Both the position numbers and the translations under genes were made by a program. Under the pieces are notes generated by a model. The model was not told where the DNA came from and did no database searches. It saw nothing but the letters and a program-made list of their open reading frames with translations. 64,000 nucleotides of DNA from Eggerthellaceae bacterium. GTDB taxonomy: Bacteria > Actinomycetota > Coriobacteriia > Coriobacteriales > Eggerthellaceae. This document shows positions 4,321 to 37,862 of the stretch, piece after piece; position 1 is the stretch's first letter; each line of letters starts with the position of its first letter. The stretch is from positions 1 to 64,000 of the forward strand of contig JAFRGA010000023.1 of assembly GCA_017434045.1 (NCBI GenBank). The letters are read 5' to 3'.

Positions 4321-4346
4321 GAAGGCCGCCTCGCCGGGCGGCCTTC
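4321..4346 (-). terminator. Rho-independent terminator of the lipoprotein gene
   Basis: A GC-rich hairpin (GAAGGCCGCC / GGCGGCCTTC) lies just after the minus-strand lipoprotein stop. On that strand it is followed by a T/G-rich tract (TGTTGTTGTG). Confidence 0.7.
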
Positions 4347-4374
4347 GTAAAGGAAGGAACGAAACGGGTAATCG

Positions 4375-5556
4375 CTATTTGGGGCGCTCGCCTGCGAGGA
4401 TCATGTTTGCCTGCTCGTCTGTCAGCTTGCATCCGTAGAACTGCATGTAGAAATCCTTCGTCTCCTGGACCATGTCGATGTCCTTGAACAGATCAGGGTT
4501 GAGCTGCTTGGCCGCCCAGAGCACCTGCAGCGCCCCTTCTCCGGAGTAGCGGTCCCATGGGAAGACGCCGCTTGGATTGGCAAAGACGTTGCCCTCCTGA
4601 ATGGCGCGCAGGCCGGCGAAGGCCTCGTCGGCCTTGAATCGTTCGACATCTTCGGGTCCTGCGTTGCCGATGATGACGACATCGGGATCGCTGTTGAGGA
4701 TTTCCTCGGCTGTGACCTCGAGGCGGTTGCCTTCCTTATCGATGGCGATCTCACCGCCGGCAAGCTTGATCCACTCTTCGACGATGGTCTTCGGACCGTC
4801 GACCATTGTGAAGTCATTGGCGTTCGCAATATGCAGGATTCTCTTCTTCTTGCCCGTAACGTCCTTCATTCGGTCGGCAACCAATGCGATGTTGTCGTCG
4901 AGCTGGCCCTCCCATTCTTTAGCGATATCGATGGCGTCGCCGCCCAGGACTTTCGCAGTGAGATTGACGTTGTCTCGAAGGCCCTGGTAATCGATAAAGC
5001 CGACATTGAGGGCCGCCAAACCCTGCTTGCGTGCAGTTTCCGTCACCTCGTCATCGGAGGCGAAGACAACATCGGGTTCAAGCTTGAGGGCTTCTTCGTA
5101 GTTGACTTCTCCGGCGCCACTGCCGACGACGAGGGTTTCGACTTCGGGAAGGCGCGGGTAGACGATGGCGGACCATGGCATGTTCTTGAAGTTCTCGGTT
5201 GTGCCCACGAGCTTGTCCCCGGCGCCAAGCATTAGGACAACCTGGTTGTGGGCGTGCCAGAGGTCGGCGATCTTGTTGATCTCGACGGGAACCTCGACCG
5301 TGGCGCCCTTGAGGTCTGTGACGGTTTGCGTAGCTGCAGCGGCTGAAGACGCGGCGCTTGCCGAAGCGGAGGCGCTTTCCGAAGCGGAGGCGTTCGCCGA
5401 TGCGCTTCCGGAGGCTTCAGCCGAAGCCGAAGTGCTGGCGGAGCCCGAACCGGAGCCACTCGAGCAGCCTGCCAGGCCGGCAAATGCGCCGGCAATGGCA
5501 ACACCCGAGCTGATTCTCACGAATTGCCTTCTCGAAATACCATCCTGATATGACAT
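4375..5556 (-). CDS. Tat-exported substrate-binding lipoprotein of FecB/BtuF type
   Basis: This lipoprotein probably captures an iron-siderophore, heme or corrinoid outside the membrane and delivers it to the FecCD permease encoded divergently. The ATG at 5556 has a strong AAGGAGGAG site. The signal has a twin-arginine motif (SRRQFVRIS) and a lipobox (GLAGC). A Ser/Ala/Glu-rich tether of about 45 residues follows, then a two-lobe TroA-like fold with the typical IADLWHAHNQ, VVFASDDE and PDVVIIGN segments. The spacing between lobes fits the class III binding proteins that carry a rigid helix. The gene is divergent from the permease/ATPase pair across an AT-rich region. The substrate is unresolved: no cobalamin riboswitch was recognised. 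Confidence 0.88.
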   Translation of the reverse strand: MSYQDGISRRQFVRISSGVAIAGAFAGLAGCSSGSGSGSASTSASAEASGSASANASASESASASASAASSAAAATQTVTDLKGATVEVPVEINKIADLWHAHNQVVLMLGAGDKLVGTTENFKNMPWSAIVYPRLPEVETLVVGSGAGEVNYEEALKLEPDVVFASDDEVTETARKQGLAALNVGFIDYQGLRDNVNLTAKVLGGDAIDIAKEWEGQLDDNIALVADRMKDVTGKKKRILHIANANDFTMVDGPKTIVEEWIKLAGGEIAIDKEGNRLEVTAEEILNSDPDVVIIGNAGPEDVERFKADEAFAGLRAIQEGNVFANPSGVFPWDRYSGEGALQVLWAAKQLNPDLFKDIDMVQETKDFYMQFYGCKLTDEQANMILAGERPK

Positions 5557-5689
5557 GCGCTCCTCCTTCATCCTTTGACGCATCATGTCCAGAATGCAGG
5601 ATTAACCTGCATATTCGTTTCCAAACCATGGGATTGTCGGATGCGAGTTAGCAAGTGGCTACCCGCTTAGCCCCGCTTTGCCATCTAGT

Positions 5690-5790
5690 CATGAAAACGA
5701 ATATTCTGATAAGTATATATTAATGAAGATATATAATAGATACAAGATAATATTAAAATATGAGAATAATTATCTTATTTAATCTCGTCG
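5690..5790. promoter_or_regulatory. AT-rich divergent control region of ABC importer 1
   Basis: A strongly AT-rich island lies between the lipoprotein (minus) and the permease (plus). It holds several GATAAT/ATTATC-like half sites and, at 5761-5777, an AT-rich string loosely resembling Fur-type iron boxes. It is a plausible metal-responsive divergent promoter. The exact -35/-10 elements could not be assigned with certainty. Confidence 0.4.
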
Positions 5791-5810
5791 CTTCGGGAAG
5801 CGAGGTGCGC

Positions 5811-6881
5811 ATGGCGGATGACAAGCCCAAGAAGAAAAAGCTCTTTGCGGAGGACGTCACCATCGAGGGCAAGAAACAAGTTCCGTTGGGGATTGTCCTC
5901 ATCGGCTGCGGTATCGTAGTCATAGCGCTTGCAATTGCCTCGCTTTGCATAGGGCGCTATTCCGTTGACCTGCAGACGACGGTTGCCATCCTCACCTCGC
6001 CGTTCACGGGTGCTGAGACAACGTGGACGCCGAACGACTACAACGTCATCATGAACATTCGCCTGCCACGTGTGGTCGGTGCGTTTCTCGTGGGCGCGGC
6101 GCTTGCGCTATCGGGTGCCTCGTACCAGGGCGTATTCCAGAACCCACTCGTTTCCCCCGATATCCTTGGCGTTTCGTATGGCGCATGCGTGGGCGCAGCG
6201 CTTTCCATCCTGTTGTACATGAACACGTGGCAGACGCAGATCTTCGCGTTTGTGGGCGGCCTGGTCACCGTGTTCATAACCGTCAGCATTCCCAAATTCA
6301 TGCATCGGCACTCCAACGTGATGATGGTGCTTTCGGGCGTCATTGTGGGCGGGTTCATGTCCTCGATCCTAGGCCTGATGAAGTACGTGGCCGATCCCGA
6401 TACGCAACTCGCTTCGATTGTGTATTGGCAGCTCGGTTCAATTGCGAAGATTGACTCCGATGTGCTGTGCTACACGGCACCCGTCATGATCGTGGCGGCC
6501 GTCGTGCTTGTGGCAATGCGCTGGCGGCTGAACCTGATATCGCTCGGAGAAGAAGAGGCGCGTTCACTCGGTGTCGATCTAAAACGCGAACGCAACATCA
6601 TAATTATTGCATCGACCCTGCTCACAGCTTCGGCGGTATCGATTGCAGGCACCATCGGCTGGGTGGGTCTCATCATCCCGCATGTCACGCGGCGCATCGT
6701 GGGATCCGACAACAAGCGGCTCATCCCCACGGTCATCCTGGTGGCAGCAGCGTTCATGATTCTGGTCGATTTGTTCGCGCGTAACATTTCGGGCTTCGAA
6801 ATTCCGCTCGGCATCCTGACGGGCCTCGTGGGCGCACCGATCTTTGGCTACATCCTCGTGAAGCAACGCGACGTCGACTAA
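5811..6881 (+). CDS. FecCD-family ABC permease, importer 1
   Basis: Integral membrane permease for an iron-chelate, heme or corrinoid importer. Family signatures are clear: SGASYQGVFQNPLVSPDILG after the second or third helix, GEEEARSLGVDL in the cytoplasmic coupling loop, GWVGLIIPHVTRRIVG and a C-terminal FEIPLGILTGLVGAPIF. About ten hydrophobic segments are visible. The ATG at 5811 (MADDKPKKKK) follows GAGGTGCGC and begins a basic cytoplasmic head; an ATG at 5760 would add 17 residues inside the AT-rich control region. The stop codon overlaps the start of the ATPase gene, so the two are translationally coupled. The matching binding protein is divergent. Confidence 0.92.
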   Translation: MADDKPKKKKLFAEDVTIEGKKQVPLGIVLIGCGIVVIALAIASLCIGRYSVDLQTTVAILTSPFTGAETTWTPNDYNVIMNIRLPRVVGAFLVGAALALSGASYQGVFQNPLVSPDILGVSYGACVGAALSILLYMNTWQTQIFAFVGGLVTVFITVSIPKFMHRHSNVMMVLSGVIVGGFMSSILGLMKYVADPDTQLASIVYWQLGSIAKIDSDVLCYTAPVMIVAAVVLVAMRWRLNLISLGEEEARSLGVDLKRERNIIIIASTLLTASAVSIAGTIGWVGLIIPHVTRRIVGSDNKRLIPTVILVAAAFMILVDLFARNISGFEIPLGILTGLVGAPIFGYILVKQRDVD

Positions 6882-7684
6882 TGGAAGGGCTTACGGACAT
6901 GGCACCTCTGATCGAAGTCAAAGACCTGGCTTTCCAATACTCGGCCCATCGTGGCAACGTGTTCCAGAACGTCTCGTTCACCGTGGAGAAAGGCGAGATG
7001 CTGACACTGCTCGGGCCTAACGGTGCGGGCAAGTCGACGTTGCTGAACTGTATTGCCGGCCTTGCCTCTCCGACCGAGGGCTCTGTGAAGCTGAACGGCG
7101 AACCCGTCGAGAGCTACTCCACGCGGCGTCTGGCGAAGCACATAGGCTACGTGCGCCAGCACATAGCCGTGACCTACGGCTATACCGTGCGCGAGTATTT
7201 GGTGATGGGTGCCGCCCCCCGCATCGGCATGTTCTCCACACCGAAAGAGGAGGACTACGAGCGTGTGGAGGAGGCCATCGTCGACCTGGAGCTCCAAAAG
7301 TTGGCCGACCGCACCGTTTCGCACTTGTCGGGTGGCGAGCGCCAACGTGTGGCCGTAGCGCGTTCCATTGTACAGAATCCCGAGGTCATCCTGTTCGACG
7401 AGCCGACGAGTGCGCTTGACTTCGGAAATCAGATCCGCGTCATGCGCACGTGCAAGCAGTTGGTCGAGCGCGGGTACGCTGTGGTCATGACGACGCATAA
7501 CCCCGACCAGCCCATCCTGCTCGGTGGCAGGGTGGCAATGCTGAACGCCGACGGAACTCTAGCCGTGGGAGATGCCGAGACGACGCTCACGAGCGAGCGC
7601 TTGAGCGAACTGTACGGCACCGAGCTGCATCTGGTGTACGTTGACGAGGTCGATCGCGTCGCCTGCGTGTCGAGCAAGTTGTAA
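6881..7684 (+). CDS. ABC transporter ATPase, importer 1 (FecE/BtuD type)
   Basis: This cytoplasmic ATPase drives importer 1. It has Walker A GPNGAGKST, a Q-loop at YVRQH, the ABC signature LSGGERQRVA, Walker B VILFDEPTSALD and an H-loop histidine in MTTHNPD. Its length of about 267 residues is normal for the family. The ATG overlaps the permease stop (TAATG); a second ATG at 6899 is possible. About 290 bp without a gene separate it from the second importer. Confidence 0.94.
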   Translation: MEGLTDMAPLIEVKDLAFQYSAHRGNVFQNVSFTVEKGEMLTLLGPNGAGKSTLLNCIAGLASPTEGSVKLNGEPVESYSTRRLAKHIGYVRQHIAVTYGYTVREYLVMGAAPRIGMFSTPKEEDYERVEEAIVDLELQKLADRTVSHLSGGERQRVAVARSIVQNPEVILFDEPTSALDFGNQIRVMRTCKQLVERGYAVVMTTHNPDQPILLGGRVAMLNADGTLAVGDAETTLTSERLSELYGTELHLVYVDEVDRVACVSSKL

Positions 7685-7974
7685 GCATAGCTTATGAGCA
7701 GTTGACAAACGATCATTCACTTCCGAGGTGAGCAATCGTCGCGCATGGCGAGAAACCTTCTCCAATCGCCGATACCGCGGTCCAAGGTCGTTGTTTTTTA
7801 TGCAAGTGGGAATACGTCGATATCGTAACGGTTCATCACGTTTAATATCGCTTCAAATCATTATAATCCCAGTTAGAAATTATATAGTATTGCAAATAGT
7901 ATTACATACGAATAAACTTAATCAGATATAGATTTACTACGCGCATTGTGCGAAACGAGGGGAAGGTGCCCGGC
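7685..7974 (+). promoter_or_regulatory. Intergenic control region of importer 2 and the surface operon
   Basis: The 290-bp gap has a GC-balanced left part with an imperfect hairpin (near 7707-7738, possibly terminating importer 1) and a strongly AT-rich right part. A TATAAT at 7862-7867 and a TTGCAA-17-TAAACT pair (7890-7918) are candidate promoters. No riboswitch consensus was recognised. Confidence 0.4.
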
Positions 7975-9105
7975 GTGGCATCTGGGTTGACATACGAGGG
8001 GAACGCATCCGCCGCAACGGTATTGCCCAATTCGCCGGGTACCGCCGAGGAAGTGGAGGCTGCGTTCGGACGCAAGGTGCCCGCTTGGGTGGCGGTCGCT
8101 CTCGTGGTGATGCTACTCGTGCTCGTGGGCATCTCGTATGCCATCGGTCGCTTTGCGGTGCCGGTGAACGAGCTCGTCAGCGGCGTGCTCACGCATTTCT
8201 TCAGGCCGGAGCTGATCGATCCGGCAAGCGCTGCGTATTCGGTCGAGGCCGAGCGCATTGACCGCGTTATCTTCAACATCCGTGGTCCCCGTATCTTGCT
8301 CGTTTGCCTGGTGGGCGCGGCACTCGCATGCGCCGGCGCTAGCTACCAGGGGATGTTCAAGAACCCGCTTGTCTCACCCGACATCTTGGGATCGTCGGCG
8401 GGCGCCTCCATGGGCGCGTGCCTGGCCATGCTGTTGAACCTTCCTGGCTTCTACATCCAAGTGTTCGCGTTCGTGGGCGGACTTGCGGCTGTGTCCTTGG
8501 CAGTGCTGCTGAACCGCCTTGTGAAATACGATCCGACACTCGGACTCGTACTTGGTGGCATTTTGGTGTCCAGCCTGTTCTCGTCGGGTACGTCGTTCAT
8601 CAAGCTCGTGGCCGACTCGCAAGACCAGTTGCCCACCATCCAGTTCTGGCTCATGGGTAGTTTCAACCGCGTCGACTCGGACGATTTGCTGCTTGCAGTT
8701 GTGCCGCTCGTTGTGGGCTTCGTCATCCTGATGATCATGTCGTGGCGCCTGAACGTGCTGTCGTTCGGTGACGACGAGGCGCGAGCGATGGGCGTGAACA
8801 CACGCAGCACGCGGCTGCTTGTTATTTTCGCCTCCACGATGCTGGCGTCGGTGTCGGTGGCCGTGGCGGGCATCATCGGCTACGTTGGCTTGGTCGTGCC
8901 ACACCTGGCGCGTGCTATCGTGGGTCCCAACTACAAGGTGCTGCTTCCCACATCCATGTTCGTAGGCGCGGCTTTTCTGCTGATCATCGACAATATCGCA
9001 CGCGTCGCCTTTGCGGTGGAGATTCCCATCGGCATCTTGACTGCCATCGTGGGCGTGCCGTTCTTCGTCGTCATCTTCCGCAACCAGATGAGGGGGTGGA
9101 AGTGA
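7975..9105 (+). CDS. FecCD-family ABC permease, importer 2
   Basis: Second permease of the iron-chelate/heme/corrinoid class, with about 35% of positions visibly shared with importer 1. Diagnostic segments are CAGASYQGMFKNPLVSPDIL, FGDDEARAMGVNTRSTR, GIIGYVGLVVPHLARAIVG and VEIPIGILTAIVGVPFF. I prefer the GTG at 7975, which follows GAGGGGAAGG with proper spacing, over the GTG at 7948, which lacks a ribosome site. A soluble N-terminal head of about 40 residues precedes the first helix. The stop overlaps the start of the next ATPase gene. This gene opens a plus-strand run that continues through the ExbB-like and surface-protein genes. Confidence 0.92.
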   Translation: MASGLTYEGNASAATVLPNSPGTAEEVEAAFGRKVPAWVAVALVVMLLVLVGISYAIGRFAVPVNELVSGVLTHFFRPELIDPASAAYSVEAERIDRVIFNIRGPRILLVCLVGAALACAGASYQGMFKNPLVSPDILGSSAGASMGACLAMLLNLPGFYIQVFAFVGGLAAVSLAVLLNRLVKYDPTLGLVLGGILVSSLFSSGTSFIKLVADSQDQLPTIQFWLMGSFNRVDSDDLLLAVVPLVVGFVILMIMSWRLNVLSFGDDEARAMGVNTRSTRLLVIFASTMLASVSVAVAGIIGYVGLVVPHLARAIVGPNYKVLLPTSMFVGAAFLLIIDNIARVAFAVEIPIGILTAIVGVPFFVVIFRNQMRGWK

Positions 9106-10163
9106 TGGGAATGGTCGCTCGGCTGCATCGCTCGGGCGGGGGGACGGGTCTCGCCTACAGCTCCTCGGCGGATGGAGGGTTTACCTTCCCGTTGTCATCG
9201 GCCGCCTGCGGAAGCGGCTCAACCCATCCGCCCGCCCGGGCGGCAGAGGGCGCCGCGCAGCCCGATTTGCCGAGCAGCCAAGGTATAGTCGCGAAGGGGC
9301 GTAGCGGCGAGGCTGCCAGGAATGGTGAGCTTTCCGGTGTAGGAGAGCCGCTCTTGCAGGTCGAGGGTCTGCATGTGGGGTATGGCGATGTCGAGATTGT
9401 GCACGGGGTCAGCTTCACGGCAGAGCGGGGGCAGTTCGTGTGCATCATCGGTGCGAACGGGTGCGGCAAGACGACGACGCTCAAGTGCATGCTGGGGCTT
9501 CTGGTGCCGACGGCGGGAAGCGTGCATGTGGATGGACACGACACGTTGCGCATGACCGAGAAGGAACGCGCGCGCCATTTCGCGTACATTCCGCAAGCGC
9601 ACACGCCGCCGTTCCCGTTTAGCGTTGCCGACGTGGTCATCCTGGGACGCACGCCCTACGTGAACAGTTTGGCACACGTGACGCACGAGGACAAACGCAT
9701 CGCATACGAGGCCATGGTGCTTTTAGGCATCCAAGACCTGGCTGGACGCATCTATACCGAACTTTCGGGCGGACAGCAGCAGCTCGTGCTGATTGCTCGG
9801 GCGCTTGCGCAGCAGCCCGATGTGCTGGTCATGGATGAGCCTACGGCTTCTTTGGACTTCGGGAATCAGCAGATGGTGCTCTCGCAGATGAAGAACCTCA
9901 CGCGGGCTGGCACGAGCGTGGTAATGGTCACGCATGACCCCGATCATGCGCTGTTCTGCGCCGATAAGGTGGTGGTGATGCACAAGGGCCTGATAATGGC
10001 CGAAGGTACACCCGATGACGTCATGACCGACGAATGCCTGCACACGATTTACAGCACGGCAGCGCGTATCGTGTCCGTCGAGCTGGAGCCTGGTTGGCAG
10101 GTGAAGGTGTGTGTACCGCTGATGAGGGAAAGCAACTCCGTAGGCATCGATGTCTACAGGTAG
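9105..10163 (+). CDS. ABC transporter ATPase, importer 2, with N-terminal extension
   Basis: ATPase partner of the preceding permease. Motifs are Walker A GANGCGKTTT, signature LSGGQQQLVLIA, Walker B VLVMDEPTASLD and H-loop VTHDPDHA. The ATPase core starts only at about residue 82. The first 80 residues are Gly/Ser/Ala-rich, look disordered and are unusual for the family. Their DNA holds a short GC palindrome (CCGCCCGCCCGGGCGG) and may derive from inserted intergenic sequence. The ATG overlapping the permease stop follows AGGGGGTGG; a GTG at 9096 and an ATG at 9111 are alternatives. A later internal start cannot be excluded, so the extension may be partly untranslated. Confidence 0.9.
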   Translation: MGMVARLHRSGGGTGLAYSSSADGGFTFPLSSAACGSGSTHPPARAAEGAAQPDLPSSQGIVAKGRSGEAARNGELSGVGEPLLQVEGLHVGYGDVEIVHGVSFTAERGQFVCIIGANGCGKTTTLKCMLGLLVPTAGSVHVDGHDTLRMTEKERARHFAYIPQAHTPPFPFSVADVVILGRTPYVNSLAHVTHEDKRIAYEAMVLLGIQDLAGRIYTELSGGQQQLVLIARALAQQPDVLVMDEPTASLDFGNQQMVLSQMKNLTRAGTSVVMVTHDPDHALFCADKVVVMHKGLIMAEGTPDDVMTDECLHTIYSTAARIVSVELEPGWQVKVCVPLMRESNSVGIDVYR

Positions 10164-10186
10164 TTGACCGAAAAGAGGGAGTGCTC

Positions 10187-11482
10187 ATGATCAGAAAACG
10201 AGAAGAGGGTATGACCATGGCTCAGGGCGGGGAGAGCCGTTCTTGCTGTCATCCTGAGTGTAGCGAAGAATCTTCGCGAAGCGGCTTGCCCAGTTCGTCG
10301 TTTAGTGGCGATCCTTCGTTTTCTGCCCGGGATGACAGCGGGCGAATGGTCAATCGCCAATGGGCGAGCGTTCTCTCGCGCAGGGCCTTCCTGCGGACGT
10401 GCGCAGCGGCGGCATTGGCCGTCGGGAGCGTGCCAGTGCTTTCAAGCTGCCGCTCGGAGGCGGGCGACGCGCTCATCAAGGGGCAGCGCCAGTTCACCGA
10501 CGATGCGGGGCGCGAGCATACGATTCCCACGCCCGACAAGCTGACCCGTGTGTATTTCACCTCGGGCTTGGCGCAGCTGTTCGTCATGACGCTGAAACCC
10601 GAGGCCATGGGCGCCACGTGCTCTCGGTTTTCCGAAGAGGATATGAAGTACCTGCCCAACATGCAGGGGCTGGAATACCTGGGAGCCGTCGAGACGGGGC
10701 AGATGGATGTCGAGGCCGTCATGCAGGCGGGCATCCAGCTGATTTTCTCCATCTCGTCAATCGAGCTGGTGGAAGCCAACATAGAGGAGGCCGACAACAT
10801 CGAGAAGCTCTCGGGCATTCCCGTCATCCTGATCGACGGTTCCACCGAGCGCATCAGCGAGGCCTACCAGAAGCTCGGCGATATCCTGGGCTGCGAGGAG
10901 CGCGCTTCCGAGCTGGCCGCGTACTGTGAGGACGTCGTCGCGCGCGTGGAGGCTGCTGTGGCCGACGTGCCCGAGGACGAGCGCGTCAGCGTGTATTACG
11001 CCGAGGGGCCACAAGGTCTACAAACCGAACCCGCGAACAGCCAGCATGCCTGGTCGTTCGTCACAGCGGGCGGCAAAGTGGTAGCCGAGGTGGACTGGTT
11101 TGACGCAACCGGCATGTCGGATGTGTCGTTGGAGTCGGTCATTGGGTGGAATCCCGAGGTCATCGTTACGTGGGATTCCGAAATCCGCGGCGGCGCCGAG
11201 GAGATCATCCGCAGCAGCGCGGACTGGGCTGTCATCGATGCTGTGCGCAACGGCCGCGTGTATGCCATGCCGAACATACCCGTGGCCTGGGTCGACCGTC
11301 CCATGGCGTGCAACCGCTTCCTAGGCGTGCAGTGGCTGGCGAACATGTTCTATCCCGACCGCTTCGACGTGGACATGGTCGAGGTAGGCCGTGAGTACTA
11401 CAAGCTGTTTTTCGGCTGCGACGTGGATGCCGAGACGATGAAGGGTTTTTTGGGCGAAAGCTACCCACCGTACAGGAAATGA
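10187..11482 (+). CDS. Tat-exported substrate-binding lipoprotein, importer 2
   Basis: Binding protein of importer 2, FecB/BtuF class, anchored to the outer face of the membrane. The signal peptide proper begins near 10345, with a twin-arginine motif (LSRRAFLRTC) and a Cys in VLSSC as the probable lipid site. The mature part keeps the family pattern (TRVYFTSGLAQLFVMTLKPEAMG, IPVILIDGS, NPEVIVTWDSE). The best ribosome site (AGAGGGAG) serves the ATG at 10187, which puts about 50 residues before the Tat motif. Most of those are encoded by a REP-like repeat (10247-10337) that keeps the frame open. If translation starts at 10345, the repeat is untranslated leader. It is followed by a 31-bp palindrome and then the ExbB-like gene. 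Confidence 0.86.
   Translation: MIRKREEGMTMAQGGESRSCCHPECSEESSRSGLPSSSFSGDPSFSARDDSGRMVNRQWASVLSRRAFLRTCAAAALAVGSVPVLSSCRSEAGDALIKGQRQFTDDAGREHTIPTPDKLTRVYFTSGLAQLFVMTLKPEAMGATCSRFSEEDMKYLPNMQGLEYLGAVETGQMDVEAVMQAGIQLIFSISSIELVEANIEEADNIEKLSGIPVILIDGSTERISEAYQKLGDILGCEERASELAAYCEDVVARVEAAVADVPEDERVSVYYAEGPQGLQTEPANSQHAWSFVTAGGKVVAEVDWFDATGMSDVSLESVIGWNPEVIVTWDSEIRGGAEEIIRSSADWAVIDAVRNGRVYAMPNIPVAWVDRPMACNRFLGVQWLANMFYPDRFDVDMVEVGREYYKLFFGCDVDAETMKGFLGESYPPYRK
10247..10337. repeat. REP-like imperfect inverted repeat inside the lipoprotein leader
   Basis: The left end TGTCATCCTGAG.GTAGCGAAG and the right end, whose reverse complement begins TGTCATCCCGGG and ends GAAGGATC, form an imperfect inverted repeat of about 91 bp. 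The left end matches a dispersed bacterial repeat well known for being translated as HPE/SERSEES-like peptides; here the reading frame gives CHPECSEES. The similarity to that class is from memory and was not searched. Confidence 0.7.
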
Positions 11483-11488
11483 CGAGCA

Positions 11489-11519
11489 ATGTGGAAAAGG
11501 GTCTGACCCTTTTCCACAT
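11489..11519. repeat. 31-bp perfect palindrome, copy 1
   Basis: Perfect 15-bp arms (ATGTGGAAAAGGGTC) flank a single central T. An identical copy is found at 37832-37862. This copy sits in the 55-bp gap between the binding-protein gene and the ExbB-like gene, where it would form a strong hairpin in the message. Confidence 0.85.
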
Positions 11520-11537
11520 GAGGAAGGTTAGCGTCAA

Positions 11538-12365
11538 ATGGAGTTATTGCAGCAAACGTATTTCAGCGACATTCTGCACGTAATCGCGCAGTCGCTGCTG
11601 CTGCCGGCGGTCATCGCGCTGATTGCGCTAGTAGTGTACGCGCTGTGGTGCGTGGGCAGCGCGGTGGTGGAATGGCGCACCGAGAACAGGCATTTCCGCG
11701 TGAGTATGCCGGAATTCCTGGATCAGATCGACGAAGCCGCTTCCGAAGAGCTGCCGGACGTCATCGCTGGATCGGGCTTGCTCGGACGCCAGAAACGCAC
11801 GTTGCTCCAGCTGTGGGACTATCGCAGTCTTCCCGTCGACTCGCACGTGGCGTTGGCGAAACGTCTGATTGAGGAGCATGAAGACTACCACATGAGAATC
11901 CTGCAGCGCACGCAGACCGTAAGCAAGGTGGCGCCGATGCTCGGCCTCATGGGCACGTTGATTCCGTTGGGACCCGGTCTCATATCGCTGGGTCAGGGCG
12001 ACACGCTTACGCTTTCGGCATCGCTGCTGGTGGCCTTCGACACGACCGTTGCGGGGCTGGTCATCGCGCTCGTGACCTACGTCGTCACGAAGGTGCGCCA
12101 GCGCTGGTACGACAACTACCTGTCGGCGCTCGAGGCGGCGAGCACAGCCATCTTGGAGAAAGTGGACGGCATGCGTCAGGCGGGCACCCTCAATGTTGAA
12201 CGCCCTACGCATTACCTGGAAGATCTCGAGCGCGCAGGTGGTATCGGGCCAGCCAAGCCTCGGAAGACCCGCCGGCAGCGTGGCAGCGGGCAAAGCGGGC
12301 AGGATGAATCGAACGATCGGAAAAGGACCGTTCCCTACGGTTCCGCCAAAGAGGTTATTTCGTGA
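11538..12365 (+). CDS. MotA/TolQ/ExbB-type proton channel protein
   Basis: Probable proton-conducting subunit of an ExbB/ExbD-like motor in the cytoplasmic membrane. The 275-residue protein has one N-terminal helix (about 16-40), a cytoplasmic domain of about 90 residues and two helices. The first of these carries VSKVAPMLGLMGTLIPLG and the second LVAFDTTVAGLVIALVTY. Together they form the family core, with the conserved Thr/Gly pattern of TM3. The tail is basic and rich in Arg/Lys/Ser. The start follows GAGGAAGG. The next gene encodes an ExbD-like one-helix protein, which fits a two-subunit channel. There is no flagellar gene nearby and no outer membrane is expected, so the coupling partner is likely a surface protein of the same operon. 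Confidence 0.88.
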   Translation: MELLQQTYFSDILHVIAQSLLLPAVIALIALVVYALWCVGSAVVEWRTENRHFRVSMPEFLDQIDEAASEELPDVIAGSGLLGRQKRTLLQLWDYRSLPVDSHVALAKRLIEEHEDYHMRILQRTQTVSKVAPMLGLMGTLIPLGPGLISLGQGDTLTLSASLLVAFDTTVAGLVIALVTYVVTKVRQRWYDNYLSALEAASTAILEKVDGMRQAGTLNVERPTHYLEDLERAGGIGPAKPRKTRRQRGSGQSGQDESNDRKRTVPYGSAKEVIS

Positions 12366-12428
12366 TGAGCGGCAAGTGTGCATCGGAGGGGCCGTCCTTT
12401 CCAATGCGGTCAGAGGTGGTGTTTTGAG

Positions 12429-12749
12429 ATGGGCAGGTTTGCGAGCCTTACGGCGGACAACTTGCGGCGTCGCCGCACACTAGAAGACGAGGATCCCACG
12501 GCGGGTCTCTCGAACTTGGCTGACTGCATGCTCGTGCTGGCGTGCGGACTTATGGTGGCGCTTGTTGTGGCCTGGAACATCGATATCCAAACCGTGACCG
12601 AGGTGCAGATGACCGACAACAAGAAGGAAATCGAAAACGTCGAAGACATCACCGGCGATTTCGAATCGGGTGGTACGAAATACGTTGACGTTGGGCGCGT
12701 GTACCAAGATCCCGATACCGGCACGTACTACATATTGGAGGAACAGTAG
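12429..12749 (+). CDS. DUF2149-like, ExbD-like single-helix protein
   Basis: A 106-residue protein with a basic cytoplasmic head, one helix (about 31-52) and an extracellular tail. The helix begins NLADCMLVLACGLMVALVV. Its Asp32 followed by MLVL matches the position of the essential proton-carrying Asp of ExbD/TolR helices. The pattern GLSNLxDxMLVxAxGLMVAL fits my recollection of DUF2149. The ATG at 12429 follows AGAGGTGG at a long distance; an upstream start at 12378 would add 17 residues unlike the family. It lies 63 bp after the ExbB-like gene and 39 bp before the first giant surface protein. It probably forms the channel with its upstream neighbour. Confidence 0.8.
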   Translation: MGRFASLTADNLRRRRTLEDEDPTAGLSNLADCMLVLACGLMVALVVAWNIDIQTVTEVQMTDNKKEIENVEDITGDFESGGTKYVDVGRVYQDPDTGTYYILEEQ

Positions 12750-12788
12750 GGGCGGGTAATGTAGCCTGCCATCAGGAAAAACATACGG

Positions 12789-15700
12789 ATGAAGCAAGTA
12801 CGTAGGCATACCTTGACTCAGGTGGCGCAAGCAGCTGGAAGGCTGCTTCTGTCGCTCGCCGTGCTATTCACGCTCATGGTGCCGACTGCATTCCTGTCGT
12901 CTGTAGCAGCCTATGCAGGTGAACAATCAGCAGCTGCCGATAAGCCTGACGATGCCGCGGGCGAAGAACTGAAGCAGAAAAGCCAGGTGGAAGAGGTTAA
13001 ATCGGTTGAACCTGATGATACGGCGGAACAGGTCGAGCCGGATTCCAACGACGCATCGGGTCAAGCTGAAGGAGACGAAGTTGCGCCGGACGCCAGCCAG
13101 ACACAAGCCGACGGCGGAAACGAGAACACAGAACAAGGCGAAGCTCCTATCGAGGAATTCAAACAAGAGCAAGTTGAACCGGAAAAGCCTGCGGACAAAA
13201 GTCAAGACAGCGAACCTGTCGAGAAAACATCTGCGGAGAACGATGCTGCGAAGGGCGAATCCGTACGTCAGGAAGCTGCAGAAACGATCGACAGCGTAGC
13301 TTCTGCTTCTCGTACGGAAAAAGCATCGCGCCTGCGTTCGCAATCGAAATCAGATGAAGACCCCGAAAAGATCGAATCTGCCCGTCTGCTGATCATGGAC
13401 CCCGTCACGGGAGAGTACGTGCTGTTCGACAAGACGTCGTCCGAGGACAAGCCCCGCAAAGTCGCCGCCGTACGCGATGCCGCCTACTTTGATGTGCAGC
13501 TCAACTACAGCGATGGCACGGTCAAAAGGGCTAGTGAAGCTAGCGTTGGGGTGAAGTGGAAGCTTGGCAACAACGTCAAAGACGGCAGGACAGTGGCCTC
13601 AGTCGACGGTGAGGGAAAGGTGTCGATTTCGGGCGTTTCGTCCAAGCTCGTACAGCTCAAGGCAACCGTCAGCGGGGTGAAAGTTGTAGGCTCGCCTGCT
13701 TACGTCAATCTGGTAAGCGATACCATCGCGCCAGATTCGGGTGAGGCCATCGACTCGGTTTCCATCACGTATACAGGATCGGGCGAAGGTGCGTCTACCG
13801 GCACGGTCGCACCTGTAAACGATGTGGCCAGCGCTGGGGACGGCGTGGCCGAGGAGGATGTTCCCGCAATAACCCAGGCTGGCGGCTCACTCGACCTGGA
13901 CGCGACGGTAACCTATGTGGATGCTTCGGGTAACAAGCGGACGAGCGATGGCAGTATGGCAGGCGCTCAGCTGGTGTGGCAGATTGTCGCGCTTTACGAC
14001 GAGATGCAGGAGCACGCAGATGTGCTTATTGCTACTCTGTGGCAAGACGGGCAGAAAGCTACGCTCAAGGCGACACAGGCTGGAAATGGTTGGGTAGCCC
14101 TGCGCTGCGCATCGAATGCCTATCCGGAATTTGCAGGGCAAGAACTGCTGGTTCGCATCGTGGGAAATGTTGCTGCTAGCGGTGCTGTCGTGGCAGCTAG
14201 CACGATAAGCGAGGCAAAACTGGTTTACGAGGATGTCGCAACGGGCTCGTACAAACCGTATGCGGGCTCGATTGCGAACACGCCCACTGTCATACTCTCG
14301 CCGGGTGGTAGCGTCAGCTTCGATGCGGAGCTGTCCTTAGAGGGCGGGGGTAACGTCCTCGCGTCCCAGTGTGGGCTTGCTGTCGATTACGCCCTTGCGG
14401 GACTTGTAAGCGCAGGTACGACCATTGCGAAAATGGCCCCCGATGGCACGCTCACGGCAACAAAGCAGAAGAACGGCACCGTGCGCATCGCCGGCGCTAC
14501 TGTCAACGGGAAGACAGTGGGCGGCACGCCGGCCTACGTGCGCATTGCGAACAACGACGCCAGCATTAGACCAACTTCGGACTCTCTAGACATCTCGGCG
14601 CTTTCCAACTACTGGGTGGGGGCTTCCCAACGTCCCGATGACGTCACCCAGGACTGGTACTGGCGAGCTGTGCCCACCACCGGGACGGGCTCGAAGTCGG
14701 TACCGTTGGTCGTGTTGGCCCCTTCATCGACGTCAAGTTGCAAGCTTTCCGCCTCGATTCGTTGGACCAACTCGGCCGTGACCACGTCGCAAGAGCAGGA
14801 CGGTGGCGAGCGTTCTTGGTCTGTCGTGAAGTCTGTCGACTACGACGGCAAGGCATGCAGTGCGCTCGTGGCTGTGGGAAGCGACGGCACAGTGAGGCCC
14901 ATAGGCTCGAAAAGCGGCTACGCGACGGTGCTCTGCACAGTCGATTTGCCCGTTTACGATTCAGATGGCAACCGTACGACCAGGAGACTTTCCGGCGAGT
15001 ACAAGGTGGCCGTGTACGCATCGCAGAACTACGTGAAGAAGATGGTGCTGCTCGACGAGAAAGGCTCGCCCATCCAGACGTCGGCAATCAAGCTCGCTTC
15101 AGGCAAGAACACCTACAACTTCTCAGCGCTCATCACCTACGTCGGCTACAACGAGGAAGCGCATCGCGTCGAGGAATACGAAGTCAACACAAAGACCGAC
15201 CCACAGAAGGCAGTGGGCTTGACGTGGAAGGTATACCGCAGTGAGGAACGCGTGAACGACGAATTGTATTCGCAAATTCGCGATGACGGTAGCTTCCGGG
15301 CGCTTTCGGGTTTCGCGCGCGGTTTCGTGTATGCGAATATGCCGCACGCCTCGTTTACTGGCAAGGACATTGGCGTTGGCGTAAGCGTCATCGCAGAGGA
15401 CAGCATCGAGTACCTGGGCCATACCGACAGCATGACCGTTACGATGTACCACTATAGCGATTACCTGAATCATGGCGAGGAGGCGAAGCCGGCCAAGGAA
15501 GTCGAGCTCACACGCGGTCAGCTCGAAGGTTTGGCCGACTACACCACCTGGTACACGTTCCACCGCCGCGGGGATGCGTTCTCGACGGCATACGCGCGGG
15601 GGCTCACCATGCGCACGCTTCTGGCCGTGTGCGGAGTCGATCCCGACCGCCTTATCAGCATGGTGTTCACAGGAACCGACGGCTACTTTGCCGAGAGGCA

Positions 15701-16619
15701 CAGCGCGAGCTTCATCCTCGGCACGCAGTATCGCTACACCAACTACTACTACCATAAAGACCTGCCTGGCCTCGTGGGCGCGCAATCTGTTTCCCCCATG
15801 CTCGCGCTTTCGTATTACATGAAGAACAACGCCGGTTATGAAGACGCCACCGACAAGAACAACGCGGGCTCTGCAGGTTACGGCTACATGACCAACGACT
15901 CCACATTTCGCGTGATCTTCGGGATGACAGGGGTGGGTATCCGCAACGCCAACCAGTCCATCAGCAATGTGAATAGGATCACGATCGTAGTCGAAGACAA
16001 CACGTTCCCGCCCGACGAAGAGGAAGAGCAGACAGAGCCTGATCCAAAGCCCGAGGATCCCGATGTGCCGCCACCTCCTCCTGAAGAGGAAAACGGTACG
16101 CCCGGCATACAGGGCGACATAGAAGGAGGTGACCGGGCCGACGAGAAGGGTCGGGGCGAAGCGCGCGAGTCGTCCAATCCGTTCAATGGTGAGTCGTACG
16201 AGGGCGTGGGTACCGACGAGAAGCAGGGTGGAACGGTTGCTGTTTCCGACAAGGGCGACTCGGAGGAGGTCGGGAAGAAGGACGCCACGAACGATCACAA
16301 CGACGACAAGGGCAGCGCTCCGGGTCAGTCCACGCAGGATAGCTCACCAGACCAATCTGCGCAGGACAGCGAGCCGGATCAATCCCCGCAAGTCAAAGAG
16401 ATCGCCAAGGGAGAGACCGATCAGTCGGGCAACCCGCTCATCCGAGAATTGCGCGAGAACCCCAAGCCGGTGCTTCCTCCCGCGGAAATCGATGCAATTT
16501 GGTGGATGCTCGTGGTGATGACGGCAATCGTTGCCCTGCTCTTCGGCGGTATGTTCCAGGGCCGCCGCTATGCGGTCGATCGCGCTGACGGTTTGATGAT
16601 ACGCATGCGGAACAAATGA
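12789..16619 (+). CDS. Giant membrane-anchored surface protein with Ig-like and sulfite-oxidase-like domains
   Basis: A 1276-residue exported protein. A signal peptide (1-42) is followed by an acidic Glu/Gln/Ser/Asp-rich stalk (about 43-195). Several bacterial Ig-like (Big2-like) beta domains come next (about 195-880), recognisable by repeated DGTVKxAS, VDGEGKVSISG and TVNGKTVGGTPAYVRI strings. At about 898-1071 a segment with the order VELTRGQL, GLTMRTLLAVCGVDPDR, GTDGYF and FRVIFGMTGVG resembles the molybdopterin-binding fold of sulfite oxidases without its catalytic Cys. A Pro/Asp/Gln-rich linker leads to one C-terminal helix (about 1234-1258) and a basic tail, so it is anchored in the membrane rather than by sortase. 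It directly follows the ExbB/ExbD-like pair, which suggests the channel acts on it. Confidence 0.82.
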   Translation: MKQVRRHTLTQVAQAAGRLLLSLAVLFTLMVPTAFLSSVAAYAGEQSAAADKPDDAAGEELKQKSQVEEVKSVEPDDTAEQVEPDSNDASGQAEGDEVAPDASQTQADGGNENTEQGEAPIEEFKQEQVEPEKPADKSQDSEPVEKTSAENDAAKGESVRQEAAETIDSVASASRTEKASRLRSQSKSDEDPEKIESARLLIMDPVTGEYVLFDKTSSEDKPRKVAAVRDAAYFDVQLNYSDGTVKRASEASVGVKWKLGNNVKDGRTVASVDGEGKVSISGVSSKLVQLKATVSGVKVVGSPAYVNLVSDTIAPDSGEAIDSVSITYTGSGEGASTGTVAPVNDVASAGDGVAEEDVPAITQAGGSLDLDATVTYVDASGNKRTSDGSMAGAQLVWQIVALYDEMQEHADVLIATLWQDGQKATLKATQAGNGWVALRCASNAYPEFAGQELLVRIVGNVAASGAVVAASTISEAKLVYEDVATGSYKPYAGSIANTPTVILSPGGSVSFDAELSLEGGGNVLASQCGLAVDYALAGLVSAGTTIAKMAPDGTLTATKQKNGTVRIAGATVNGKTVGGTPAYVRIANNDASIRPTSDSLDISALSNYWVGASQRPDDVTQDWYWRAVPTTGTGSKSVPLVVLAPSSTSSCKLSASIRWTNSAVTTSQEQDGGERSWSVVKSVDYDGKACSALVAVGSDGTVRPIGSKSGYATVLCTVDLPVYDSDGNRTTRRLSGEYKVAVYASQNYVKKMVLLDEKGSPIQTSAIKLASGKNTYNFSALITYVGYNEEAHRVEEYEVNTKTDPQKAVGLTWKVYRSEERVNDELYSQIRDDGSFRALSGFARGFVYANMPHASFTGKDIGVGVSVIAEDSIEYLGHTDSMTVTMYHYSDYLNHGEEAKPAKEVELTRGQLEGLADYTTWYTFHRRGDAFSTAYARGLTMRTLLAVCGVDPDRLISMVFTGTDGYFAERHSASFILGTQYRYTNYYYHKDLPGLVGAQSVSPMLALSYYMKNNAGYEDATDKNNAGSAGYGYMTNDSTFRVIFGMTGVGIRNANQSISNVNRITIVVEDNTFPPDEEEEQTEPDPKPEDPDVPPPPPEEENGTPGIQGDIEGGDRADEKGRGEARESSNPFNGESYEGVGTDEKQGGTVAVSDKGDSEEVGKKDATNDHNDDKGSAPGQSTQDSSPDQSAQDSEPDQSPQVKEIAKGETDQSGNPLIRELRENPKPVLPPAEIDAIWWMLVVMTAIVALLFGGMFQGRRYAVDRADGLMIRMRNK

Positions 16620-26113: not shown

Positions 26114-26119
26114 TATAAT
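26114..26119 (+). promoter_or_regulatory. Candidate -10 element before the DUF364 gene
   Basis: A perfect TATAAT lies 65 bp before the chosen start. No good -35 is visible at 17 bp, so an activator may be needed. Confidence 0.4.
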
Positions 26120-26183
26120 GATCAGCGGCAATCAAGCGAAAGAGCTCGGCAATAGAGCCGACCTGCAAAAGGAGATGCTTCAC

Positions 26184-27029
26184 ATGGGACGCATGGATGA
26201 CTTAAAAGGTGGAAAAGCTCAAGCAACAGGGGCAATTGCATTTCCCGGAACGGATGCCCATGAGGGCCCGTGGGCGTTGTACAACGAGTTGATCGAGGGG
26301 ATTCCCGAAGGCATCGCCGTACGCGATTACTGCCTGGGCACGCATTGGTCGTATGTCGAGGCTGACAGCGGCATGGGCATTGCGTGGACGGCAAGTGGCG
26401 GCGCCAAGCGTCAGTACAAGGGTGATTTGCGTGGTCGCGAGTTACGCGAGATGGCGCAGCTGGCCAAGTCGTGGTGCTTCGAGGAAGCCACGTTGGGCAT
26501 CGCGGCGTTGAACGCCTGGTATGCGCAACGCGACAAGCTCGATTCTCTGGGAGCGCGTTACGACGAGCCTGTCGACCTTCCTGATGGCACCCGTCGGAAA
26601 ATGGATGCTTTCGAGCTGCATGCCGACCAGATGAACGGAAAGAAAGTCGTGATGGTGGGGCATTTCCCGCACCCTGAGCGCTTGGTGGACTACGGTGCCG
26701 ACCTGACTGTCCTGGAGCGTAACTGCCGCGATGAGCTTGACACGCCCGATCCGGCATGCGAGTACATCATACCCGGTGCTGATCTGGTGTTCTATACCGG
26801 CGTGACGTTCATCAACAAGACGGCCCCACGTTTGTTGGCGCTTGCGGCCAATGCGCGCACCGTCATGGTCGGGCCGAGCGTCATCATGGCGCCTCGCCTG
26901 TTCGACCGCGGAGTGGACATGCTCGCAGGCAGCGTCGTAGCCGATCCCGACAAGACGCGCTTTGCCGTGCAAAATGGCGCGGGGCAGTTTTTCGGCGAAG
27001 CATTGAGCATGCTTTACCTGGAAAAATAA
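26184..27029 (+). CDS. DUF364 (putative heavy-metal chelation) protein
   Basis: A 281-residue cytoplasmic protein. Its N-terminal half resembles DUF4213 (GLGTHWSYVEA-like start, GIAWTASGG). Its C-terminal half has the DUF364 Rossmann-like pattern (KKVVMVGHFPH, LTVLERNCRDELDTPDPACEYIIP, DLVFYTGVTFINKT, VMVGPSVIMAPRLFDRGVDMLAGSVV). Members of the family are proposed to bind metals and often lie near molybdenum or iron genes. The ATG at 26184 follows AAAAGGAG; earlier ATGs lack proper spacing. It is 24 bp upstream of moeA and probably co-transcribed with it, which points to a role in molybdenum handling. The biochemical activity is unknown. Confidence 0.82.
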   Translation: MGRMDDLKGGKAQATGAIAFPGTDAHEGPWALYNELIEGIPEGIAVRDYCLGTHWSYVEADSGMGIAWTASGGAKRQYKGDLRGRELREMAQLAKSWCFEEATLGIAALNAWYAQRDKLDSLGARYDEPVDLPDGTRRKMDAFELHADQMNGKKVVMVGHFPHPERLVDYGADLTVLERNCRDELDTPDPACEYIIPGADLVFYTGVTFINKTAPRLLALAANARTVMVGPSVIMAPRLFDRGVDMLAGSVVADPDKTRFAVQNGAGQFFGEALSMLYLEK

Positions 27030-27053: not shown

Positions 27054-28337
27054 ATGCGCGACCATTCGAAGCACGTGCAAGTTTCCAAGGAGCAGGCAAT
27101 AGACCTGATTTTAGGAGCTTGCAGGTTCTCGCCTGATTTCGAAGAGGTGCCCATTGGCCAGGCAATAGGGCGCGTACTTGCCCATGATGCCGTAGCTCGA
27201 CTCGACATGCCGAATGCCCTGACGTGCTGCATGGATTCGATTGCCGTGCATTGGGACGACTTTGCCGAGCTCGATGGAGGCCTTCCCAACACCACCGATT
27301 GGGTGCGTGGGCGCGATTGGGAGTTCGCAAACACGGGTGTCGCCATGCCGGAGGGCTTCGACACGGCCATTGTCGTAGAGCACGTGCGCGTGAGCGCGGA
27401 CGAGCAGCATGTCGAATTGGAAGCCGCGCCGTCCAAGCGTTTCGCCGGCACGCGTCCTGCTGGCAGCAAGTTTCATGAAGGTGATGTGCTCGTAGAGGCT
27501 GGCACGACAATAACGCCCTTGCTTGCAGCCCATATCGCAAGCGGTAACAACTCAGTTGTCGAAGTCATCGCCAAACCGAAGGTCGCCTTCCTCCCCACGG
27601 GCAACGAGCTGGTGCCTGTGGGAGGCGAAATACCCCTTGGGCGGAATATCGAGACGAATAGCCTGCTCATGAAGGGCAAGATCGAGCAATGGGGCGGTCA
27701 GGCGCTGTTGTACCCAATTACGCCGGACGATCCCGAGGCGCTTGAAGCCGCATTGCGCAAGGCATCGGCAGAAGCCGATATAGTCGTCCTAAACGCCGGG
27801 TCGTCGAAAGGTTCCGACGACTGGTCGCTCGAGATTCTAGAACGCATCGGGAAGGTGCTGTATCACCAGACGAGCCATGGGCCGGGGCATCACAGCTCGT
27901 GTTCTGTTCTGGATAACACACCCGTCATCGGCATCTCGGGTCCTCCTGGCGGCGCTGCCTTCACAGCCGATTTCTACCTCTGGCCGGCCATGCGGAAATT
28001 CTTGGGCCAGGATCCGCAGCCTGCGCGTGTTCTGACGCGGTTGGCGAACGCATTTCCAAGCGGGGGTCCGGGCGGCGCAGCGGGGCAAACAGGTGCGTCG
28101 TCGAAGCCGGCGGGAGAGGTGCGTCCGAGCGAGACCGGGCTGTTCTATGGGATCAAGCAAATGGTGTTGCACCAGGCAGACGATGGTTTCATCGAAGCTT
28201 GCCCGGCGTCCTCGAGTCATCCTGGCCCAGTTGAAGCAGAGGCTGCCGATGCGTACTACGCATTGAAGACCGGCCCGGGAATCCAACCGCCTGCTGTGGG
28301 GGACCTCGTCGAGGTCGTCTTGCGACCCGAGCGGTAG
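27054..28337 (+). CDS. moeA: Molybdopterin molybdenumtransferase MoeA
   Basis: Inserts molybdate into adenylylated molybdopterin, the last step of basic molybdenum cofactor synthesis. At 427 residues it has near-normal length. The N-terminal MoeA region is visible (EEVPIGQAIGRVLAHDAVARLDMP), although the usual small-residue motif around DGYA is altered to CMDSIAVH. The central domain has VAFLPTGNELVPVGGEIPLGRNIETNS, the MoCF motif NAGSSKGSDDWS and ISGPPGGAAF. The C-terminal domain is divergent. The ATG follows GGAAGGAG. It is co-directional with the DUF364 gene, and a convergent NTPase gene ends 43 bp downstream. Confidence 0.93.
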   Translation: MRDHSKHVQVSKEQAIDLILGACRFSPDFEEVPIGQAIGRVLAHDAVARLDMPNALTCCMDSIAVHWDDFAELDGGLPNTTDWVRGRDWEFANTGVAMPEGFDTAIVVEHVRVSADEQHVELEAAPSKRFAGTRPAGSKFHEGDVLVEAGTTITPLLAAHIASGNNSVVEVIAKPKVAFLPTGNELVPVGGEIPLGRNIETNSLLMKGKIEQWGGQALLYPITPDDPEALEAALRKASAEADIVVLNAGSSKGSDDWSLEILERIGKVLYHQTSHGPGHHSSCSVLDNTPVIGISGPPGGAAFTADFYLWPAMRKFLGQDPQPARVLTRLANAFPSGGPGGAAGQTGASSKPAGEVRPSETGLFYGIKQMVLHQADDGFIEACPASSSHPGPVEAEAADAYYALKTGPGIQPPAVGDLVEVVLRPER

Positions 28338-31120: not shown

Positions 31121-31140
31121 CTCGGATGAAGGAATGTCCA

Positions 31141-33638: not shown

Positions 33639-33861
33639 TCCGTTGGGAATGTCGCTCGTCTTTCCCTCAACGGTTATCCTGCTATCCTCCAGCGTCGCCC
33701 ACCATTGCGTGCTGTCCCATTACGGTCAGGTATGAACGGTGATGAAGTTAATGCATATCCGAGACTATATCTAGAAAAGAATGCTGCATACCGTTACACT
33801 CAATTGAAATGCTATGAAGAGTGGCTTGCGGAAAGCGGGCGGCTTAAACGATGGGGAAGGC

Positions 33862-34866: not shown

Positions 34867-34934
34867 AGCGCGCCTGGAGCCTGAAGGATCATGAGTTTGA
34901 AGTCAACGTGCGGACGTTGCAGAGGGAGGTTTCG

Positions 34935-35432
34935 ATGGGCGAGCAGTTAACCCACATCGACGAGAAGGGCGACGTGCGCATGGTTGACGTGTCGGCAAAG
35001 CCCGATACCGAGCGCATTGCCATTGCCGAAGGGTTCATCAGCATGAAACCGTCGACGCTCGCGCTGATCGTGGAAGGCAAGGCGGCCAAAGGCGACGTGC
35101 TCGCCTGCGCACGCGTAGCGGGCGTCATGGCGGCCAAGCAGACGAGCTCGCTCATCCCGATGTGCCATCCGCTCAACATCACGAAAGCCAAGGTGGAATG
35201 CACGCCCGTGTTCGAGGGCGAGCGCGATGACGACCGCGTGGGCATCCATATCATCACGACGTGCGGTGTCACCGGCAAGACTGGCATCGAGATGGAGGCG
35301 CTGACGGCTGCGAGCATGGCCTGCCTGACTGTTTACGACATGTGCAAGGCTGTCGACCGCGGTATGGAGATCACCGACGTGCGGCTGCTTAAGAAGGACG
35401 GCGGCAAGACCGGGCTTTGGTTGAGGGCGTAA
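34935..35432 (+). CDS. moaC: Cyclic pyranopterin monophosphate synthase MoaC
   Basis: Second enzyme of molybdenum cofactor synthesis, completing the MoaA reaction. The 165-residue length is normal. Family signatures are [20 protein letters not shown], the [12 protein letters not shown] segment with the conserved His, [19 protein letters not shown] and the C-terminal Lys-rich [10 protein letters not shown]. The ATG at 34935 follows GGGAGG. It closes the molybdenum island. Moa D/E and later steps are not in the window. Confidence 0.96.
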
Positions 35433-37831: not shown

Positions 37832-37862
37832 ATGTGGAAAAGGGTCTGACCCTTTTCCACAT
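37832..37862. repeat. 31-bp perfect palindrome, copy 2
   Basis: Identical to the element at 11489-11519. It lies between the convergent membrane-protein and TetR genes, where it could act as a two-way terminator. Confidence 0.85.

Follow-up and report, generated by a model that had tools for sequence, protein, structure and literature searches.

A 64,000-nucleotide stretch of the genome of a gut actinobacterium of the Eggerthellaceae (GenBank assembly GCA_017434045.1, contig JAFRGA010000023.1, positions 1 to 64,000; hereafter, the window) encodes an ExbB-type channel subunit, a one-helix protein of the DUF2149 family, and a membrane-anchored surface protein of 1,276 residues, downstream of ABC importer genes of the FecCD type (Table 1). 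The existence of a module consisting of this motor pair and a surface protein with a conserved domain, here designated SD, is well supported: it recurs in Coriobacteriia and Clostridia, and SD has the predicted fold of sulfite oxidase (SUOX) and of the pterin-binding protein PruR. The function proposed here is held tentatively. A Ton-like motor would act on a membrane-anchored receptor with a pterin-binding fold, which would feed a compound of the molybdenum- or tungsten-pterin (Mo/W-pterin) type to the importer.

The motor pair and the anchored surface protein

An initial annotation, made from the sequence alone, described three open reading frames (ORFs) that are all found where it placed them, behind the genes for a FecCD permease, an ABC ATPase, a second permease, a second ATPase, and a binding protein. 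The first ORF, described there as a MotA/TolQ/ExbB channel gene, indeed encodes a member of the MotA_ExbB family, matching PF01618 above the cut-off of 22.9 bits. The sequence itself has no PDB match at E ≤ 1. The AlphaFold2 model, with a predicted local distance difference test score (pLDDT) of 83 and a predicted template modeling score (pTM) of 0.70, is closest to Escherichia coli ExbB (PDB ID 5sv0; E = 2.5e-4; TMt 0.57), followed by TolQ and then by PomA/MotA. Two threonines in the membrane, T140 and T170, do not vary in two alignments (28 and 30 sequences); their counterparts in E. coli ExbB are the pore threonines T148 and T181.

The product of 12378-12749 matches DUF2149 (PF09919) above the cut-off of 27.1 bits, whereas the ExbD Pfam profile gives no match at E ≤ 1. 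From the ATG at 12429 it comprises 107 residues (106 plus the start, as aligned) and contains the motif N-L-A-D32-C-M-L-V-L. This start places the ExbD-like Asp32 exactly as annotated; D32 is kept in at least 90% of 27 aligned relatives, and M34, L35, and V36 are invariant. Asp32 presumably fits D25 of ExbD. As the ExbD profile finds no match, the DUF2149 protein would work like ExbD without necessarily being one. The best reading of the pair is a proton-driven ExbB/ExbD-type motor with DUF2149 in the ExbD role.

MotA/TolQ/ExbB and DUF2149 also stand side by side in the hmuYRSTUV heme operon of Bacteroidota, in which HmuU is ExbB-like and HmuV is DUF2149 (PMC12583661, PMC10434189). In that operon the motor works for a CobN-like dechelatase and a receptor of the outer membrane that depends on TonB, whereas the window genome (77% complete) has no match to CobN or to the Plug domain of TonB receptors, the latter being an indirect test for the lack of an outer membrane. 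Plug is found in 1 of the 138 genomes of the family, a single weak case. The system in the window, in contrast to HmuU-HmuV, has a surface protein with the SUOX fold, and some of its clusters include a FecCD importer. With the Ton system (ExbB-ExbD-TonB) it shares the predicted ExbB fold, the ExbD-like D-x-MLV motif, and a third protein with a membrane helix and a proline-rich linker. However, DUF2149 falls outside the ExbD Pfam family, its outer tail is short and bears a G-x-VY-x-D-x-x-TG motif, the helix of the third protein is C-terminal, and there is no receptor barrel.

The 1,276-residue protein contains an N-terminal hydrophobic signal-like helix, an acidic, proline-rich linker, and a C-terminal membrane segment (residues ~1234 to 1252, from hydropathy), in agreement with the annotated membrane anchor. 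The whole sequence has no PDB match at E ≤ 1. Its SD domain was found by an iterative profile search; in the window protein it has no Pfam name and PF00174 (Oxidored_molyb) is unmatched, and clostridial SD relatives match PF00174 with up to 54.7 bits. The AlphaFold2 model of the window copy (42-row alignment; pLDDT 87.2; pTM 0.83) matches the folds of PruR (PDB ID 7kp2; Z 12.3 over 126 residues at 2.5 Å) and sulfite oxidase (PDB ID 3hbg; Z 12.0), with a clear gap to unrelated folds, which score Z ≤ 4.7. The SD profile reaches PruR and sulfite dehydrogenase sequences at E values of 0.12 to 0.45, amid unrelated matches of similar E. Because these scores are weak, the fold assignment is based on the predicted model and on the PF00174 matches of the relatives. 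No cysteine is conserved across the 42 rows, 15 of which have none at all, so that a conserved Mo-ligand cysteine is missing as judged from the alignment rather than from superposition. As a new finding, SD thus has the predicted fold of sulfite oxidase and PruR, a pterin-binding fold, without a conserved Mo-ligand cysteine. PruR, too, is without the Mo cysteine and is a pterin-binding signaling protein (PMC13259868). It is small, periplasmic, and paired with the signaling enzyme DcpA, whereas SD is a domain of large, anchored surface proteins encoded next to a motor.

Of the 30 SD proteins whose genes immediately precede ExbB, 29 have, by eye, a C-terminal hydrophobic segment plus a basic tail. 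A hydropathy cut is passed by 25 of these 30, as against 24 of the 83 other SD proteins (p = 3e-7), and SLH or CWB2 wall domains are found in some SD proteins not directly upstream of ExbB. This distribution suggests that a single anchored receptor stands by the motor, with additional SD proteins located in the wall. The module would work in outline like the Isd heme relay of Gram-positive bacteria, in which proteins of the wall and the membrane share a ligand-binding fold and act ahead of a lipoprotein and an ABC importer; that relay differs in that its fold is NEAT, whereas that of SD is SUOX, and in that a proton motor is added here. The initial annotation proposed that the surface protein may be the mechanical partner of the motor; as revised here, the partner is not an arbitrary surface protein but one that carries a predicted pterin-binding fold of the sulfite oxidase/PruR type.

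Conservation of the module

When 84,980 species genomes were scanned with the ExbB alignment, at least 588 relatives were confirmed, of which the best 80 come from Coriobacteriia and Clostridia. Association was counted in 48 loci from these two groups with at least 4 kb of flank on each side. DUF2149 adjoins ExbB in 47 of them, SD is found within 6 kb in 37, a FecCD permease within 6 kb in 17, and either SD or FecCD in 41. The gene order FecCD-ABC-SBP-SD-ExbB-DUF2149 (SBP, binding protein) repeats in many clostridial loci, and importers of three kinds, namely FecCD, ModAB, and energy-coupling factor (ECF), recur beside the pair. Among culturable carriers, Clostridium ljungdahlii has the pair (L148), and Gordonibacter isolates have all parts of the set (L093 and L098). 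The initial annotation had described an ExbB/ExbD-like motor joined to a surface protein and an ABC importer in a Gram-positive lineage, to be refuted if related genomes showed no conserved association with importers or surface genes. The association is conserved across two phyla, so that this refutation fails; the motor is evolutionarily linked with a surface protein and, in many cases, with a FecCD importer.

The gene order varies and several loci are without one of the parts, as would be expected if surface protein, importer, and motor were chance neighbors. This explanation is scarcely credible, given the presence of SD in 37 of the 48 loci. The window genome encodes two ExbB-DUF2149 pairs and exactly two SD proteins, one beside each pair (SD profile score, 161.6 bits), which takes the grouping beyond chance. 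Within the family, DUF2149 is found in 30 of the 138 genomes and 13 of the 48 genera; by hand count, SD is present in 26 of these 30 genomes and in 22 of the 108 DUF2149-negative ones, where the matches are mostly weak. A control search found DUF2149 in Methanosarcina acetivorans.

In a 2025 survey, Ton parts of monoderms are graded "likely non-functional" (PMC12204202), and the pair could accordingly be a functionless vestige of a Ton system. Its conservation makes this very improbable: the proton-path residues and the adjacent DUF2149 are preserved in those relatives that were aligned, which span two phyla and were taken from at least 588 related ExbB genes, and no decay is seen. ExbB/ExbD motors are taught as outer-membrane machines; a conserved motor with a SUOX-fold surface protein in many Gram-positive bacteria says otherwise, and the module provides a defined target for testing parts that have been dismissed as probably nonfunctional (PMC12204202). 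No description of this gene set was found in the literature searched (subscription journals and preprints excepted), in which five papers mention DUF2149 by name. What appears new is the partner of the Ton-like motor, in a setting without outer-membrane receptors.

The second ExbB-DUF2149-SD set of the window genome is found at positions 4335-12172 of locus L044 (G000:C57). By eye, it is flanked by glutamine synthetase-like and citramalate/isopropylmalate synthase-like genes, with no importer seen, and arrangements of this type recur in other loci of the genus. In other actinomycetotal families, DUF2149-ExbB is found next to a large CobN-like protein (loci L154 and L155, with a signal-like N terminus in L154), an FmdE protein (L158), or a surface protein with PKD domains (L157). 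These neighbors suggest that the motor has several outer partners. A peptidyl-prolyl isomerase-like gene (Rotamase/SurA_N) is found 3' of ExbB-DUF2149 in L034, L036, and L037, with ModA in L034 and L037.

Proposed ligand and mode of action

In the window, the block of surface-protein genes leads, in the same orientation, into genes for a DUF4213-DUF364 protein, MoeA, a ModA-ModB-ModC-like importer, MoaA, and MoaC; judging from this context, the importer is a putative molybdate/tungstate transporter. Genes for DUF364, MoeA, ModA-ModB, aldehyde:ferredoxin oxidoreductase (AFOR), MobB-FdhD, and ECF importers recur in other loci. AFOR is a family of tungsten enzymes. On the basis of its structure and genome context, DUF364 has been proposed to synthesize a derivative of flavin or pterin that serves in the uptake of metals, and its neighbors include molybdate and tungstate transporters (PMC2954201).

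Riboswitches for the molybdenum cofactor (Moco; RF01055) adjoin SD clusters in Syntrophomonadaceae and their relatives. In seven clostridial genomes, 7 of the 84 Moco riboswitches precede an SD gene of the same strand by no more than 1.2 kb, against an expectation of 0.15, and no SD gene is found on the opposite strand near any of the 84. The Poisson p value of 3e-10 is too small, because these genomes were picked for having a riboswitch already seen near the cluster; the agreement in strand and the short distances are the sounder evidence. The neighbors of the module in the window and the riboswitch-controlled SD genes of Clostridia link the system with Mo/W-cofactor metabolism, as in ModABC and Moco-riboswitch regulons; the known regulons differ in that they consist of transporters, synthesis genes, and Mo enzymes. 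For Syntrophomonas wolfei, a 2008 paper left other genes of the Moco-riboswitch regulon "of unknown function" (PMC2408646). The module would explain these genes and would also suggest a role for DUF2149.

This evidence points to Mo/W-pterin chemistry rather than to heme, iron chelates, or corrinoids. The most likely ligand of SD would be a pterin or a molybdopterin-type compound, perhaps with Mo or W, and a powered uptake of a compound resembling the Mo/W cofactor is proposed tentatively with regard to both substrate and mechanism. The initial annotation had named heme, iron chelates, or corrinoids as candidate ligands, which are now less likely, as the Moco genes, the clostridial riboswitches, AFOR, and DUF364 favor a Mo/W-pterin. 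With heme, an iron chelate, or a corrinoid as the ligand, the motor and surface protein would serve uptake through FecCD as a Gram-positive counterpart of HmuUV. The heme operon of Bacteroidota does use the same two families (PMC10434189, PMC12583661), a CobN/HmuS-like protein accompanies DUF2149-ExbB elsewhere in the phylum Actinomycetota, and the permeases and ATPases of the window score best against BtuC, heme/corrinoid, or iron-dicitrate models, far below the curated cut-offs. However, the surface domain has a Moco/pterin fold, Mo/W genes adjoin it, CobN is missing from the 77% of the genome that is covered, and no cobalamin riboswitch is found: the window has no riboswitch match of any kind, and a search of 34 loci finds only the Moco riboswitch, in Clostridia. 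Uptake of heme, iron, or corrinoids appears quite unlikely; it keeps some probability, as no named relatives are closer than HmuUV and as CobN-like or FmdE neighbors are found elsewhere in Actinomycetota.

Several observations weigh against Mo/W-pterin uptake by a motor, SD receptor, and FecCD importer. The SD copy in the window fits the fold weakly by sequence. SD is absent within 6 kb from 11 of the 48 loci and FecCD from 31, and many of the clostridial clusters use an ECF importer or none nearby. The FecCD permeases of the window look most like BtuC. Neither the window nor the 138 family genomes contain a Moco riboswitch, which confines this evidence to Clostridia, so that the ligand in the window is judged from the fold and the gene neighborhood. 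Within the flanks sampled, neither the nearest sister locus (L162) nor most other loci show the adjacency to Moco genes. Finally, MoaA is found in 24 of the 30 DUF2149-positive genomes. Cofactor uptake would thus not replace synthesis but would supplement it or supply the metal; by the same count, the idea that the carriers are Moco auxotrophs was rejected.

Another view is that the motor drives a different process at the wall, such as signaling, electron transfer, or wall remodeling, with SUOX-fold proteins sensing or carrying a pterin or redox cofactor and FecCD as an occasional neighbor. PruR, a signaling protein that binds pterin without the Mo cysteine (PMC13259868), would fit this view, as would the scarcity of FecCD (within 6 kb in 17 of 48 loci only) and the second pair of the window genome, which lies amid housekeeping genes with no importer seen. 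A Syntrophomonas SD cluster is followed by genes for FMN-binding, ApbE, and NapH-like ferredoxin proteins. On the other hand, FecCD, ModAB, and ECF importers recur beside the pair, and the order FecCD-ABC-SBP-SD-ExbB-DUF2149 is repeated across Clostridia. A role in sensing or redox chemistry, which would fit PruR as a signaling protein and the FMN-binding, ApbE, and ferredoxin genes of some clusters, is considered unlikely. In the Syntrophomonas locus (L111, 15756-19066), the genes after the SD cluster code for FMN-binding, membrane SUOX-like, NapH-like ferredoxin, and ApbE proteins and resemble an electron-transfer module.

For Mo/W-pterin uptake, the mechanism that we infer would make the 1,276-residue protein the partner of the motor. 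It would stand in the membrane by its C-terminal helix, dock to ExbB-DUF2149 through this anchor, and reach into the wall with its acidic, proline-rich linker, a topology that would correspond to TonB with its ends exchanged. Proton flow through ExbB-DUF2149 might then provide the force step by moving or reshaping the anchored receptor, which would receive the ligand from surface proteins bound to the wall and pass it on to the lipoprotein and then to the FecCD importer. The direction of transport would be inward, and the ligand would feed the adjacent Mo/W-cofactor metabolism. A broader version, in which the Ton-like motor of Gram-positive bacteria pulls a Mo/W-pterin or Moco itself through the wall via a relay of SUOX-fold proteins to FecCD, ModAB, and ECF importers, is somewhat unlikely. 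If this version is true, the module would be a machine dedicated to scavenging a cofactor, and ExbB/ExbD-type motors would have a use undescribed in the literature searched. It raises the question of a dedicated bacterial uptake route for Moco or pterins; a 2026 review lists the passage of pterins across membranes as unknown (PMC13259868).

Other features of the window

Gene calls were scored by codon usage, as calls based on the longest ORF are misleading at high GC content. The true start of binding protein 2 is probably downstream of 10034, given the overlap of its ORF with the ATPase gene. For the DUF2149 ORF, Table 1 gives the ATG start; a GTG opens the frame at 12378.

Table 1. Positions of the module and of its neighbors in the window
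Feature	Position	Strand	Evidence
Binding protein 1 of FecCD-type importer, divergent lipoprotein	4375-5586	-	PF01497, 78.3 bits
FecCD permease 1	5760-6881	+	PF01032, 281.7 bits
ABC ATPase 1	6881-7684	+	PF00005, 139.4 bits
FecCD permease 2, the copy conserved beside ExbB-DUF2149	7948-9105	+	PF01032, 286.6 bits; neighbor conservation
ABC ATPase 2	9096-10163	+	PF00005, 113.2 bits
Binding protein 2 (SBP2), Tat-type lipoprotein	10034-11482	+	PF01497, 50.2 bits; TAT signal TIGR01409
ExbB-type motor channel subunit, 275 residues	11538-12365	+	PF01618, 42.3 bits; AlphaFold2 model
DUF2149 (HmuV family) one-helix motor subunit	12429-12749	+	PF09919, 33.9 bits
Surface protein, 1,276 residues, C-terminal membrane anchor	12789-16619	+	ORF and hydropathy
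SD, conserved domain of the 1,276-residue protein with predicted SUOX/PruR fold	15408-16058	+	AlphaFold2 model, fold match, profile
C-terminal membrane segment of the 1,276-residue protein	16488-16544	+	Hydropathy
Second secreted surface protein, 1,868 residues	16650-22256	+	phmmer homologues in many family loci; sister clusters
Third secreted surface protein, 1,102 residues	22583-25891	+	ORF
DUF4213-DUF364 protein, putative pterin/metal-chelation enzyme	26118-27029	+	PF04016, 119.9 bits; PF13938, 76.9 bits
MoeA, Moco synthesis	27054-28337	+	PF03453, 74.3 bits; PF00994, 57.9 bits
ModA-like gene	30037-31038	+	PF13531
ModB-like gene	31126-32523	+	PF00528
ModC-like gene	32520-33638	+	PF00005
MoaA, Moco synthesis	33814-34866	+	PF06463, 112.1 bits, at C11:34402-34821
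MoaC, Moco synthesis	34908-35432	+	PF01967, 184.8 bits

The two giant secreted proteins encoded downstream of the anchored one have similar C-terminal repeat regions. The first of them, which matches no Pfam family above cut-off, may be a wall-bound first receptor.

A near-perfect palindrome, GAAAAGGGTCTGACCCTTTTC, is found at positions 11494-11514 and 37837-37857 of the window (two copies versus 0 expected). The first copy lies between the binding-protein gene and ExbB, and the palindrome is also present in a sister locus (L049/L074). It is a candidate dispersed hairpin repeat or attenuator.

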